Part shown: one piece after another, positions 11,491-15,573 of the stretch
How positions within the stretch are numbered: position 1 is the first letter of the stretch
Layout: every line of letters begins with the position of its first letter
The notes under the pieces: generated by a model
Told to the model about the DNA's origin: nothing
What the model saw: the letters and a program-made list of their open reading frames with translations, nothing else
Database searches by the model: none
Made by a program: the position numbers and the translations under genes
Assembly: GCA_026003175.1 (NCBI GenBank)
Contig: BPGT01000001.1
Span: 844,839 to 908,838, forward strand
DNA from: Armatimonadota bacterium
Lineage (GTDB): Bacteria > Armatimonadota > HRBIN16
Length of the DNA stretch: 64,000 nt
Reading direction: 5' to 3'

Positions 11491-12660
11491 TCACGCCAGA
11501 TGCCGATTGTGTGCGCGCGCCAGCAGGATGAACACCATCAGCGCCGCCATCTGCGCCAGCACCGAAAACGCCACCAGCCCTATCACCGAACGGTCGTACA
11601 GCCACCCCATCAACGCGCTACCCAAGAACCATGCCAACCCATAGCCGGTATGGAACACACCGTAGCCCGTGCCACGGCGTTCGGAGGGGACAAGGCGTGC
11701 TACCGCCGCGCGCATTACCGACTCCTGTGCGCTCATGCCAATGCCCCACAATATCGCCCCGGTAACCGCTCCCCCAAACCCGCCCAGGAACGCCAGCGGC
11801 GCGAAGCCTGCGGAAATCACCGTCGCCAGAATGAGCGTGCCGAAGCCGATTCGGTCAAACAGTCGCCCCAGCACAAGCGCACCGATAGCGTCCACCCCCA
11901 TCGCCAGCGCATAGAACAGGGCGATGCGGCTGGAAGAGACCAGCCCCGTTTTGCCAAAGTGGTACGCCATCAGCGGGAAGTCAGCGTAGCCAGCTGCTAC
12001 CAACCCCACCGCGCCCAGATACAGCCAGTAGGTTGGGGTAAAACCTCGCGTTTGCAGGGTAACCGCTTTCGTCTCCAAATCCTGCGGACGGGGGAACTGC
12101 CATCGTGCAATGCCCAGAGCTATCAACGCCAGCAACGCAGGCACCAGCAGTACAGCGAAACCCAGTCGGTAGTCGTTGCGGATGGAGAGGGTGATGAAAA
12201 CAATCAGCGGACCCAGCACCGCGCCTATCTGGTCCATCGCCTCGTGCAGACCAAAACCCCAGCCGTGCCCCATCTGTTTGGTAGCGTGCGAGAGCATCGC
12301 GTCGCGGGCTGGGGTGCGGATGGCTTTGCCGAGACGTTCCACCACAATCAGCAAGGACGCCAGCAGCCAGTGCCCCGTCAGCGCAAGCAGAGGAACCGCC
12401 AGCAGGTTCACCGTATAGCCGGTGAAAGTAAGCAGCCAGTAGCGACGCGTGCGGTCGCTGAGGTAGCCGGAGGCAAGACGCAGCACATAGCCGACCAGCT
12501 CACCCAATCCCGATACGAAGCCCACCACCGCTCCGCTCGCGCCCAGCGCGCCCAGAAAAGGACCGGTGATACTGCGCGCGCCTTCGTAGGTCATGTCTGC
12601 ACAGAGGCTCACCAGACCCAGCAGCACAACGAAAACCACAGAACGCGGCAGCGTTTTCAT
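11491..12660 (-). CDS. MFS permease, last gene of the riboswitch operon
   Basis: A major facilitator of about 389 residues with 12 predicted membrane segments. The loop 2-3 motif is present as GYVLRLASGYLSDRTRRYW, and RTPARDAMLSHATKQMGHGWGF-like residues follow in the next loop. Substrate is not readable. I start it at the ATG at 12660 (AGAGGA eleven bases upstream); an in-frame GTG at 12705 adds 15 unconserved residues. It is 62 bases behind the stress-protein gene on the same strand, so it probably belongs to the operon that starts at the riboswitch near 15550. Confidence 0.85.
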   Translation of the reverse strand: MKTLPRSVVFVVLLGLVSLCADMTYEGARSITGPFLGALGASGAVVGFVSGLGELVGYVLRLASGYLSDRTRRYWLLTFTGYTVNLLAVPLLALTGHWLLASLLIVVERLGKAIRTPARDAMLSHATKQMGHGWGFGLHEAMDQIGAVLGPLIVFITLSIRNDYRLGFAVLLVPALLALIALGIARWQFPRPQDLETKAVTLQTRGFTPTYWLYLGAVGLVAAGYADFPLMAYHFGKTGLVSSSRIALFYALAMGVDAIGALVLGRLFDRIGFGTLILATVISAGFAPLAFLGGFGGAVTGAILWGIGMSAQESVMRAAVARLVPSERRGTGYGVFHTGYGLAWFLGSALMGWLYDRSVIGLVAFSVLAQMAALMVFILLARAHNRHLA

Positions 12661-12722
12661 AAGGTGTATGTCCTCTTTTCGAAGAGCAAGGTTAGTTTCT
12701 CGCACAGGCGGTTCGGCTCCTT

Positions 12723-13145
12723 CTATTTAGCCACCAGCACATGACAGGACACATGCGCCACGATAGACGAAGCAGTGCTGCCGAACACCCTTTCGTGTAG
12801 AGTGGAATGTCCCTGGTGCCCAATGACCACCAGGTCTACCTGATAATGCTTCACGAAGTCCACAATAGACCATACTTCGTGTCCGGCAACAATATGTGTG
12901 TACACGGGCACATCCGCCAGCTGCGCGGCGAGGCGCACCTGTCTTTCCAGCTGGGCGAAGTAGGCATCGCGCTGTTGTTTGACCTCCTCGTATTCGCCGA
13001 TGGTGGCGGCGTATTTCGGCAGGTCTTCCTCTACCATAATCACATGCAGTTCGGCTTCGAGTGCTTTCGCCAGCGCGAGCCCAGCGTTAAGCGCGCGCTC
13101 CGCGCCCTCTGAGCCGTCGAATCCGACCAGAATGCGGGAATACAT
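12723..13145 (-). CDS. universal stress protein (UspA family)
   Basis: A single-domain, 140-residue UspA protein. The N-terminal strand MYSRILVGFDGSEGAERAL and the C-terminal nucleotide-binding motif GHQGHSTLHERVFGSTAS (G-x2-G-x9-G-S) are both intact, which predicts ATP binding. It lies 14 bases behind the antiporter gene, in the same operon. Stand-alone Usp proteins next to transporters often act as nucleotide-sensing regulators, which would fit here but is an inference. Confidence 0.92.
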   Translation of the reverse strand: MYSRILVGFDGSEGAERALNAGLALAKALEAELHVIMVEEDLPKYAATIGEYEEVKQQRDAYFAQLERQVRLAAQLADVPVYTHIVAGHEVWSIVDFVKHYQVDLVVIGHQGHSTLHERVFGSTASSIVAHVSCHVLVAK

Positions 13146-13159
13146 GTTCGTTTCTCCTT

Positions 13160-14347
13160 TTATCCCTCCTCAGTGTGAGCCAGACTCACCTGCTTCTGCA
13201 CCTCTGAGTGCGACAAAGTCTCTTCCTTCACCAATGGCTTGAAGAAGCTCTGTGCGATGAGAGTGGGAACCAGCGCACTGCCTATGGTCACAGCGACCAG
13301 TAAAGTATACTGAGAAGAGGACAGGTAGCCGTGCGACAAGCCGAAGACAGCAGCAATGATGTCGAAGGTCAAACCTGTGCTCATCACCAGCGAGGTATAC
13401 GTGGCTTCGGTGTGTGACATCTTCAACTGTCGGCAAACGAGGTAAGATATGGCTGTTTTGCTCAGTATGCGGATGCCGAGTAACAACAGGATAACCATCA
13501 GACTATTCCGGAAGATAGAAGCTTGCACATAGGCGCCTGCACGCAGGAAATAGAAAGGCGTGAAGACAGCAAATGCCAGAGCACGTAGCTGGTGTAGCGA
13601 TTCGCGGTGTACTGAGAACACTGCAGATAGCGATAGACCCAGCAGGTACGCCGCTAGCAGCGCCTGTGTATCAGCAAGATCGCTCAGGCTACTGAAGAAG
13701 AGAAGTAGCAAAAGCAGGTACTTTGTTCGTGGTTGGCTAATATGTGCGCTAACTCTCCGAAAGAAGGAAGAGCTCATTAAAGGCGCCGTACAAACCGCAA
13801 CGGCGGTAGCCGCCAGATATACCGCCAACCAGATGCCTGGCTTTGTAAAAGCCAGTCCCAACAATAGCATTGCAGCCAGATTAGACATGAAACAGGCGAC
13901 CAATATCCGTCTGCCCAGAGGCGCACGGTTCATGCCAGTGTCCATCAACACTGTGTACACGATAGCGATAGAGGTTGGAGCCAGCGCGATGCCGGTGATT
14001 AGCGAGGCTTGCCATGTCCACTCCATCATCAGCCGAACCAGTAACAGTTCGGCAACAAGTGCAGTCAGGAACGATAGCAATCCAAGTGTAAGCGCCCCTT
14101 TCCATTCGCTGCATAGTGCGTACCAATCGGTTTCCGCGCCTGCCAAAAAGGTAAGCAGTATGCCACCCAGCCCCGCCAGAAAGTTAATCCACTCGTTGGG
14201 CTGGATGTGCAATATGTTACCTCCCAGCACGCCGAACAGGATTTCCGCCAGAGCAACACTCAGCGCCAGCCGTACGGAAACCAGCGACGCGGCAAGTGCC
14301 AGAGCCATCCAGATAAACGCTGTCCACCAGACGTTCATTGTCTCCAT
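13160..14347 (-). CDS. CPA2-type cation/proton antiporter
   Basis: A 395-residue, strongly hydrophobic protein with about 12 membrane segments of the monovalent cation:proton antiporter-2 (Na+/H+ exchanger) family. The conserved segment reads LLTFLAGAETDW, followed by TGIALAPTSIAIVYTVLMDTG in the unwound-helix region. There is no C-terminal TrkA-N domain, unlike KefB/C. AGGGAG precedes the ATG by six bases. As the main membrane transporter behind a fluoride-type riboswitch, it is the best candidate here for fluoride export or for pH/ion balance during fluoride stress. Confidence 0.88.
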   Translation of the reverse strand: METMNVWWTAFIWMALALAASLVSVRLALSVALAEILFGVLGGNILHIQPNEWINFLAGLGGILLTFLAGAETDWYALCSEWKGALTLGLLSFLTALVAELLLVRLMMEWTWQASLITGIALAPTSIAIVYTVLMDTGMNRAPLGRRILVACFMSNLAAMLLLGLAFTKPGIWLAVYLAATAVAVCTAPLMSSSFFRRVSAHISQPRTKYLLLLLLFFSSLSDLADTQALLAAYLLGLSLSAVFSVHRESLHQLRALAFAVFTPFYFLRAGAYVQASIFRNSLMVILLLLGIRILSKTAISYLVCRQLKMSHTEATYTSLVMSTGLTFDIIAAVFGLSHGYLSSSQYTLLVAVTIGSALVPTLIAQSFFKPLVKEETLSHSEVQKQVSLAHTEEG

Positions 14348-14356
14348 GAAATCTCC

Positions 14357-14812
14357 CTATCGTTTCGGCAGGAAGTGCATCTGCGCGATCTCCTGCACAT
14401 GCTTCAGTTCGCGTTCGACAGTGTGCTGCAGGCGACGGAGCAACTCTCGCTCCTCTTCGTTGATCTCTCCGTATCGCTTCTCGAATCGTTCGGGGTCCAG
14501 TTCCGGCAAGATAGAGTCGTGCAGGTTGCCCAGTAGCAAGCGCAGCCAGTAATAGGTGGTTTCAAGGGGTTCTGGCTGGTCATGCTGCTGCGTTAGACTA
14601 GGTACCAGCCGCCTGAGCGCATCGTGGTAGCTATCTACCAACCTCTCCAGGGCTTCCTGAAGCATTCGCCACTGTGAAGGGGGCAAAGGGGTTAGTCGCT
14701 GCCCCCCTCCGGAGGGTGAGATACCCATCCAGCCTGCCTGCGTGATGCGGCTGACCGTGTCCTCCAACTGCACCAGCAGCGCGAACAGATGTCTGCGGTG
14801 ACTATCGTTCAT
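14357..14812 (-). CDS. small helical protein of unknown function
   Basis: A 151-residue protein, helix-rich, starting MNDSHRRHLFALLVQLED. I do not recognise a family. The start at 14812 has a perfect AAGGAGG site with six-base spacing and overlaps the upstream gene by eleven bases. Residues about 25-45 (SPSGGGQRLTPLPPSQW) come from a GC-rich DNA segment that interrupts otherwise helical sequence and may be an inserted repeat. The C-terminal half is dense in Glu and Arg. It sits between the DUF6062-like gene and the antiporter gene. Confidence 0.7.
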   Translation of the reverse strand: MNDSHRRHLFALLVQLEDTVSRITQAGWMGISPSGGGQRLTPLPPSQWRMLQEALERLVDSYHDALRRLVPSLTQQHDQPEPLETTYYWLRLLLGNLHDSILPELDPERFEKRYGEINEEERELLRRLQHTVERELKHVQEIAQMHFLPKR

Positions 14813-15434
14813 GATGCACCTCCTTAGCAAAAACACCGTAAATCTTGCGCATCGCTCGACGCCAGCTACCTACCTCCTCGCCCCACGGCTCGTGCTGGAA
14901 CCGGTAGTCGTGCTTGCGAATAACCTCCTGCAGCTGCGCGCGTAGTATCTGCCATCGATGATTCTCATTAGCAACGATCCACTTTTGCACCTCGGGCGAG
15001 GCACTGCGCAGCACCTGCCGCAAGTGGGGCAGGCAAAGCCCCGAACTTCGCTCATAGCGTGTCCGCCACTCCGCCTGGTGCAACAGCTCTGCTAGCAGCT
15101 TCGTCATCTGCGCCACGTCGCGCACCTGCGCCTCGCATAGCTGGCAGTGCCATCCCACAGAAGCGCGCTTCGTTGCAGGAGCAATGGACGTATGCGCCAG
15201 CACATCCTCAGCGATAATCGCCAGAGAGAGCACGCTTGCCCGCGATAGCACTAGCTCCGCATGGTAAGCGCAGAAACCGTTGCCCTCGCGCAGGGATTGT
15301 CGCCACTGCGGGTCGTTCACATGCTCGCTCAAGAGTGTATCCACTTGACGCAGCAGATGCTGATGCGCCAGCCAACACAGCGCGCACTCGCCCTCTTGCA
15401 GAGCCTCTTCCATAGCTATCTCGGGCAGATGCAT
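14802..15434 (-). CDS. DUF6062-like cysteine-containing protein, first gene of the riboswitch operon
   Basis: A 210-residue soluble protein with two matching halves. The first has CALCWLAHQHLLRQVDTLL followed by DPQWRQSLREGNGFCAYHAE. The second has CQLCEAQVRDVAQM followed by SSGLCLPHLRQVLRSA. Each half therefore offers C-x2-C and, further on, C-x2-H, as in DUF6062 proteins. The pattern could bind a metal or an Fe-S cluster. It begins about 20 bases after the terminator of the riboswitch, so it is the gene directly controlled by it. Function is unknown. Confidence 0.75.
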   Translation of the reverse strand: MHLPEIAMEEALQEGECALCWLAHQHLLRQVDTLLSEHVNDPQWRQSLREGNGFCAYHAELVLSRASVLSLAIIAEDVLAHTSIAPATKRASVGWHCQLCEAQVRDVAQMTKLLAELLHQAEWRTRYERSSGLCLPHLRQVLRSASPEVQKWIVANENHRWQILRAQLQEVIRKHDYRFQHEPWGEEVGSWRRAMRKIYGVFAKEVHHER

Positions 15435-15453
15435 GATGACCCCCTATAAACGC

Positions 15454-15548
15454 AAAAACGGCTCACTGTTCAACTGAACAGGAGCCATTAGCCTCCTCCG
15501 GCGGTTCGCCCTTCACACGAAGGGCAGGCGGACCTCCATCGCCTCTTC
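15454..15548 (-). promoter_or_regulatory. fluoride riboswitch (crcB motif) with overlapping intrinsic terminator
   Basis: Read on the minus strand, the leader has GGCGATGGAG and CCGCC forming the first stem (GGCG/CGCC). An optional hairpin GCCCTTC/GAAGGGC follows, then GAACCGCC and GGCTAATGGCTCCT, giving a GCC/GGC second stem. GGAG in the first loop can pair with CTCC near the 3' end as the pseudoknot. This order (GATGGAG, AACCGCC, then TRATGRCTCCT) is the crcB/fluoride aptamer pattern. The 3' strand GGCTCC is also the 5' arm of a terminator (GGCTC, CTGTTC / GAACAG, GAGCC) followed by GTTTTT at 15454-15459. Fluoride binding would protect the pseudoknot and block termination. Confidence 0.88.
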
Positions 15549-15564
15549 ATCGTCTGTGCATTTT

Positions 15565-15573
15565 ATTATACCA
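15565..15573 (-). promoter_or_regulatory. extended -10 promoter of the riboswitch operon
   Basis: TGGTATAAT on the minus strand is a consensus -10 hexamer with the TG extension. No good -35 hexamer lies at the usual distance, which is common for extended -10 promoters. Transcription would begin near 15558, about ten bases before the first riboswitch stem. Confidence 0.7.

Follow-up and report, generated by a model that had tools for sequence, protein, structure and literature searches.

A fluoride riboswitch operon with a CPA2-like transporter, a UspA protein and a DUF6062 protein in an Armatimonadota genome with neither Fluc nor CLC detected

Hydrogen fluoride, a weak acid, diffuses into bacteria, where the fluoride becomes trapped (PMC11139923). 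Its export is known from just two protein families, unrelated to each other, and over 85% of the bacterial strains surveyed possess one or the other (PMC11139923). The locus described here lies in a 64,000-nucleotide stretch of an Armatimonadota genome (the window) and raises the question of how fluoride would be removed where a fluoride riboswitch is present and both families appear to be missing. Because neither known exporter is found here and the pairing of this RNA with an antiporter recurs across many phyla, the operon may conceal a fluoride exporter of a third kind.

Five minus-strand genes, with gaps of -11 to 62 bases, follow the riboswitch and encode a DUF6062 protein, a small protein, a CPA2-like antiporter, a UspA protein (USP) and an MFS permease (Table 1). 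This arrangement of closely spaced same-strand genes, with the corresponding Pfam matches, is as claimed in an earlier note on this DNA. That note also said that the five genes look like a complete fluoride-stress module, a description that we infer rather than observe. Both flanking genes (BioY downstream of the operon, a 2-oxoacid:ferredoxin oxidoreductase upstream) are encoded on the opposite strand, which makes the operon a self-contained unit. The DUF6062 protein scores 81 bits against PF19538 (cut-off 27) and belongs to that family, and the antiporter belongs to PF00999 (119.4 bits, cut-off 26.2); against NCBIfam TIGR00932 (CPA2), the latter scores 100.7 bits, under the cut-off of 238.3. 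Homologues of the 151-residue protein, the structure model of which is poor (pLDDT 58), occur at the riboswitch loci of G028, G029, G043 and G058.

Table 1. Leader elements and genes of the operon, with positions in the window.
Feature	Position	Strand	Evidence
TATAAT -10 box, likely promoter	15565..15570	-	sequence; weak -35
Fluoride riboswitch aptamer (RF01734)	15472..15552	-	38.3 bits, gathering score 34
Intrinsic terminator, expression platform, 5' arm overlapping the aptamer 3' segment	15456..15489	-	-19.6 kcal/mol, z -4.1; followed by a U-run
DUF6062 protein, 210 aa, two CxxC...GxCxxH units	14802..15434	-	PF19538, 1.2e-22
151-aa probably helical protein, conserved MNDSH start	14357..14812	-	without Pfam/NCBIfam family
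CPA2-like Na_H_Exchanger transporter, S155-N156 instead of T/N-D	13160..14347	-	PF00999, 2.2e-34; NapA 8.1e-18 by profile
UspA-family protein, 140 aa	12723..13145	-	PF00582, 7.9e-29
MFS permease, 389 aa from conserved start, ORF opening at 12705	11491..12660	-	PF07690 (MFS_1), 4.8e-35

The RF01734 covariance model aligns with the leader over its full length (model positions 1-64, E 4.9e-8) and scores above the gathering cut-off. The aptamer is almost invariant in sequence among eight members of the genus, and RF01734 has no other match in the 4.1 Mb genome; at the gathering threshold, the whole 64-kb window contains one tRNA in addition and no other riboswitch. These results bear out the proposal that the leader is a crcB/fluoride aptamer. 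The terminator hairpin (15489-15457) is kept in the eight genus genomes, and in one of them (G008) it carries a paired change, from CTGTTC..GAACAG to CTGCTC..GAGCAG. Its 5' arm contains the aptamer segment ATGGCTCC, so that aptamer and terminator are mutually exclusive. The 3' strand of the aptamer had been said to double as the 5' arm of a perfect terminator: the overlap is real, but the hairpin has one bulged U. A promoter consensus scan returned a weak overlapping site only, at the TATAAT region, and transcription likely starts just before the aptamer, from this box. As far as sequence can tell, the leader is confirmed as a genuine riboswitch of the terminator type. We rejected a chance look-alike ahead of an unrelated operon as very improbable: the score is merely 4 bits over the cut-off, but the riboswitch is present in 8 of the 10 genomes of the genus, the terminator is conserved, and fluoride riboswitches of other families and phyla have the same genes behind them.

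In our model, the leader would end at the terminator when fluoride is absent. When fluoride is present, the aptamer would sequester the CTCC segment and block the terminator, allowing expression of the five genes. The induced set would then comprise two membrane transporters, UspA, a small helical protein and DUF6062, the last of these probably a zinc protein with two sites.

Profile searches of the whole window genome (G000) found neither CRCB/Fluc (PF02537) nor CLC (PF00654), and the same searches were negative in nine congeners. The operon had been described as lacking crcB, and the gene was found neither there nor anywhere else in the genome. An overlooked exporter was rejected, since both profiles were negative in all these genomes while the controls worked (the CRCB profile was positive in 10 of 14 control genomes); across 61 genomes of the phylum, the same profiles detected Fluc in 32 and CLC in 22. 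In a cell with no Fluc and no CLC, fluoride would most likely be removed by one of the operon's two transporters, although export could also fall to a transporter of some unrecognised family that is encoded elsewhere in the genome. On balance, and with modest confidence, we favour the view that a fluoride-ON riboswitch controls the sole recognisable fluoride-tolerance operon of this genome and that removal proceeds through one of these two proteins.

The same module is found elsewhere in the phylum, where 27 of the 61 genomes carry the riboswitch. In six other families (G013, G028, G032, G038, G039 and G058), riboswitch loci contain the same antiporter and USP and variously also DUF6062, the MFS permease and the small protein. 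The antiporter clade occurs in 15 of the 61 genomes and within a riboswitch locus in 14; the sole exception, in G006, lies at a contig end. Antiporter carriers of the phylum lack Fluc more often when genomes are counted (p 0.006), a bias that is gone when genera are counted (3/7 vs 9/12, p 0.33). Other genes behind riboswitches of the phylum encode Fluc, enolase, an ABC ATPase, a dynamin-like GTPase and a different PF00999 protein with a CLC.

When about 85,000 species genomes were scanned, at least 590 antiporter relatives came to light; the loci of the best 80 were searched with a covariance model built from 28 riboswitches of the phylum. Of these 80 relatives, 59 are preceded by a fluoride riboswitch at a distance of no more than 400 nt (at 24 bits or more in 54 of the 59), and for 15 more a riboswitch of the same strand lies farther upstream; among the six relatives that lack one, four start within 3.2 kb of the beginning of their sequence stretch. 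Rfam's own model, used at its gathering score, confirmed 14 of 16 sampled loci. Within the same best 80, USP directly follows the antiporter in 54 of 79 cases, while a related MFS and DUF6062 are present in 23 and 9, respectively, of the 47 loci with enough flank. The window locus fits this pattern, with a fluoride riboswitch upstream of the antiporter and USP directly downstream. The phyla represented include Chloroflexota, Bacillota, Thermodesulfobacteriota, Nitrospirota, Planctomycetota and Pseudomonadota. The link between riboswitch and antiporter spans phyla, and the clade is a candidate third exporter.

Carrier genomes were also searched for known exporters. Fluc is missing from 47 of the 76 genomes that carry the best 80 of the at least 590 relatives and present in the other 29, so the antiporter often works beside an exporter. 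CLC matches were found in 9 of the first 32 Fluc-less carriers (of 47), and none of the CLCs of these 32 genomes shows the CLC-F signatures given in PMC11139923. A CLC-F hidden among the CLCs of the carriers was rejected on this ground, the positive control L120 showing all three signatures (GNNLI, GREGT and GEVTP). Many carrier genomes are incomplete MAGs, but two are from cultured isolates, Desulfofundulus australicus DSM 11792 (G082) and Desulfovirgula thermocuniculi DSM 16036 (G100), and in both we found the riboswitch-antiporter pair and no Fluc or CLC. Since there are free-living genomes with the pair in which neither family was found, fluoride movement by the clade is directly testable.

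Profile comparison relates the clade to NapA (PDB 4bwz; 8e-18) and KefC (8bxg; 7e-10) over most of the transporter domain. The D156-D157 pair of NapA, Q-D in KefC, is aligned with T-D (61 sequences) or N-D (24 sequences). The equivalent of NapA D157, numbered D156 in the clade, is kept in 86 of 90 sequences, and K297, equivalent to NapA K305, in 89 of 90. Residues of the clade that are extra to NapA and KefC are K/R269, Y131 and T324/T327. The first of these, Met in NapA and Gly in KefC, is found in 85 of 89 sequences, a count biased by the inclusion of residue 269 in one of two patterns used for the search; K or R is nevertheless present in all 13 independently found members of the phylum whose sequences span this region. 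NapA belongs to the crossover-elevator architecture. Anions are also among the substrates of transporters with this architecture, auxin, bicarbonate and bile acids being examples (PMC9477730), so that an anion substrate for the clade is not far-fetched. The clade is compatible with three roles, namely direct F-/H+ exchange, exchange of cations for H+ that lowers the pH gradient, and plain pH repair. In the parent clade, the CPA2-like transporter would be the prime candidate for fluoride removal, probably swapping fluoride, or a cation, for protons at the conserved aspartate; if the substrate is a cation, exchange would lower the pH gradient that traps fluoride.

The window copy departs from this scheme. 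Its TM5 motif is S155-N156, without the ion-binding aspartate, and N156 (N-type, as opposed to D-type) occurs among the 90 sequences solely in the window genome, G001, G002 and G004. A broken copy in G006, with frame breaks, is also S-N at these positions. The window protein retains T125-S126, K297 and R/K269. A foreign origin was rejected: a tree built with a quick method, with moderate support, places G000 with G004 and G001 beside the other copies of the genus on a long branch, which makes fast divergence likelier than import. Between G000 and its sister genome G003 (bacterium HRbin16, contig BEHS01000015), the antiporters are 53% identical, compared to 79% for DUF6062, 90% for the small protein, 94% for USP and 90% for the MFS permease. 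The omega value of the N-type pair G000/G004 is 0.185, against 0.09-0.10 for D-type pairs, indicating a weaker yet real constraint. In G002 (locus L032, 4508-5391), a deletion has left a fusion of approximately the N-terminal half of the antiporter with the end of USP; this genome still has the riboswitch, DUF6062, the small protein and the MFS permease, and no Fluc or CLC. The earlier note had singled out this antiporter as the likely exporter, and that choice is not sustained in view of the loss of D156, a divergence faster than that of its neighbours and the truncation in G002. Judging from the NapA/NhaA literature, loss of D156 should remove proton/cation coupling, whether the window copy is now an uncoupled carrier or is being lost.

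The divergence is also uneven along the protein: the first 80 or so residues are about 80-85% identical to G003 and the next 40 just 30%. Localised fast evolution or recombination could produce such a pattern.

The MFS permease is present in all 8 genus genomes with the riboswitch, at 81-92% identity in 7 congeners, although in G008 it is located outside the operon, elsewhere in the genome. Its omega of 0.07-0.11 indicates strong constraint, and it had no match among PDB sequences. Since the window antiporter has lost its aspartate, diverges fast and is half-deleted in a genome that keeps the MFS permease, the latter is at least as good a fluoride-exporter candidate in this lineage. With the conserved aspartate gone, the MFS permease, or an uncoupled CPA2 carrier, would be more likely to bear the load here. 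A stricter version, with a decaying antiporter and fluoride export by the MFS permease, strikes us as unlikely, though far from fanciful. It would account for the loss of D156 in G000, G001, G002, G004 and G006, for the damaged copies in G002 and G006 and for the low identity of the antiporter to G003 next to USP and the permease; moreover, related MFS genes lie directly behind their own fluoride riboswitches in L137, L143 and L158. It sits less well with an antiporter ORF that is intact in G000, G001 and G004, with an omega that is not neutral and with the retained T125-S126, K297 and R/K269, and the frame breaks of G006 may be assembly errors.

Ordinary pH and ion homeostasis is a strong rival, to which we give slightly less than an even chance. 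According to this explanation, the clade never contacts fluoride and acts as a cation/H+ exchanger that, under HF stress, mends or lowers the pH gradient across the membrane; UspA and the other products serve in general stress, and fluoride is exported by another, unrecognised protein or leaks out as HF. It is the established reading of riboswitch-linked Na+/H+ antiporters (PMC11139923), and the conservation of D156 and K297 is what a cation/H+ exchanger would have; the Fluc found beside the antiporter in 29 of the 76 carriers of the best 80 points the same way. However, near-exclusive control of one clade by fluoride riboswitches exceeds the need of a general pH exchanger, as does the clade's presence in the 47 Fluc-less carriers of this set. 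Replacement of NapA D156 by T or N and the added K/R269 also argue against it, and so does a window copy that has no cation-binding aspartate and is still under purifying selection.

DUF6062 is the other recurrent member of these loci. Seven residues (C17, C20, C55, H58, C97, C100 and C134) are invariant in 28 DUF6062 proteins and H137 nearly so, which suggests a probable two-site zinc protein with a zinc-dependent soluble role. Its AF2 model is all-helical (pLDDT 88); no PDB structure matched the model at E <= 0.001, and sequence-profile matches were at chance level only. DUF6062 occurs in 18 of the 61 phylum genomes, 16 of which are riboswitch carriers (Fisher p 7e-6, uncorrected for kinship), and lies inside the riboswitch locus in 14. 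We found no papers on DUF6062 in the open-access literature, and its recurrence beside fluoride riboswitches provides a first biological context for the family.

Taken jointly, these elements allow a broader reading that we hold only tentatively, as more apt to fail than to hold. The riboswitch-linked CPA2 clade, with or without a partnered MFS permease, would add to the bacterial fluoride exporters a third class, unrelated in structure to the other two, that serves many lineages with neither Fluc nor CLC-F; one branch in the genus of the window would have changed its coupling after losing the proton/cation aspartate, and DUF6062 would be a new zinc protein of the fluoride regulon. If true, this class would be of use in efforts to engineer fluoride tolerance and organofluorine metabolism, and a set of antiporters presumed to act on pH would have to be reinterpreted.

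The fluoride riboswitch and its link with antiporters are already known. The locus shares the aptamer, the terminator overlap, the ON logic and the association with ion-transport genes with described crcB/fluoride riboswitches (Weinberg 2010, PMC2864571; Baker 2012), but it has a five-gene set without crcB, in a genome where neither crcB nor CLC was found. Na+/H+ antiporters are the commonest riboswitch-linked class after exporters (PMC11139923) and are likewise PF00999 transporters under a fluoride riboswitch; the difference here lies in a defined clade of CPA2 transporters, marked by T/N-D in TM5 and by K/R269, that is often the only candidate exporter. The FRM operon of Enterobacter cloacae (ppaC-uspA-eno-gpmA-crcB) is also a fluoride-riboswitch operon with uspA, but contains crcB and fluoride-inhibited enzymes where the window has the antiporter, the MFS permease and DUF6062 (PMC5533749). 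With CLC-F F-/H+ antiporters, a family unrelated to the clade, the analogy is functional only, that of a proton-coupled antiporter under a fluoride riboswitch. As far as the open-access literature shows, the near-exclusive fluoride linkage of one CPA2 clade is new, and so are its frequent presence where no known exporter was found, the association with DUF6062 and the derived state of the window copy; we found no CPA2 or MFS fluoride exporter in that literature.

Several other fluoride-riboswitch loci deserve mention. In Candidatus Formimonas warabiya (L188, 5803-16025), six fluoride-riboswitch matches (E <0.01) lie within about 10 kb and surround antiporter, USP and DUF6062 genes. In G017, a genome without Fluc, a fluoride riboswitch (L045, 3840-6898) precedes a different PF00999 transporter and then a chloride-type (GREGP) CLC with a TrkA_C domain; this transporter was rejected as a clade member because it does not match the clade profile. 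Two loci contain dynamin-like GTPases (L051, 5393-7177, in G043; L052, 9121-10890, in G038), one behind DUF6062 and the other directly behind its own riboswitch. Finally, in G059, where no Fluc or CLC was found, two fluoride riboswitches flank genes for an extracellular solute-binding protein and an ABC permease (L046, 5805-7691).
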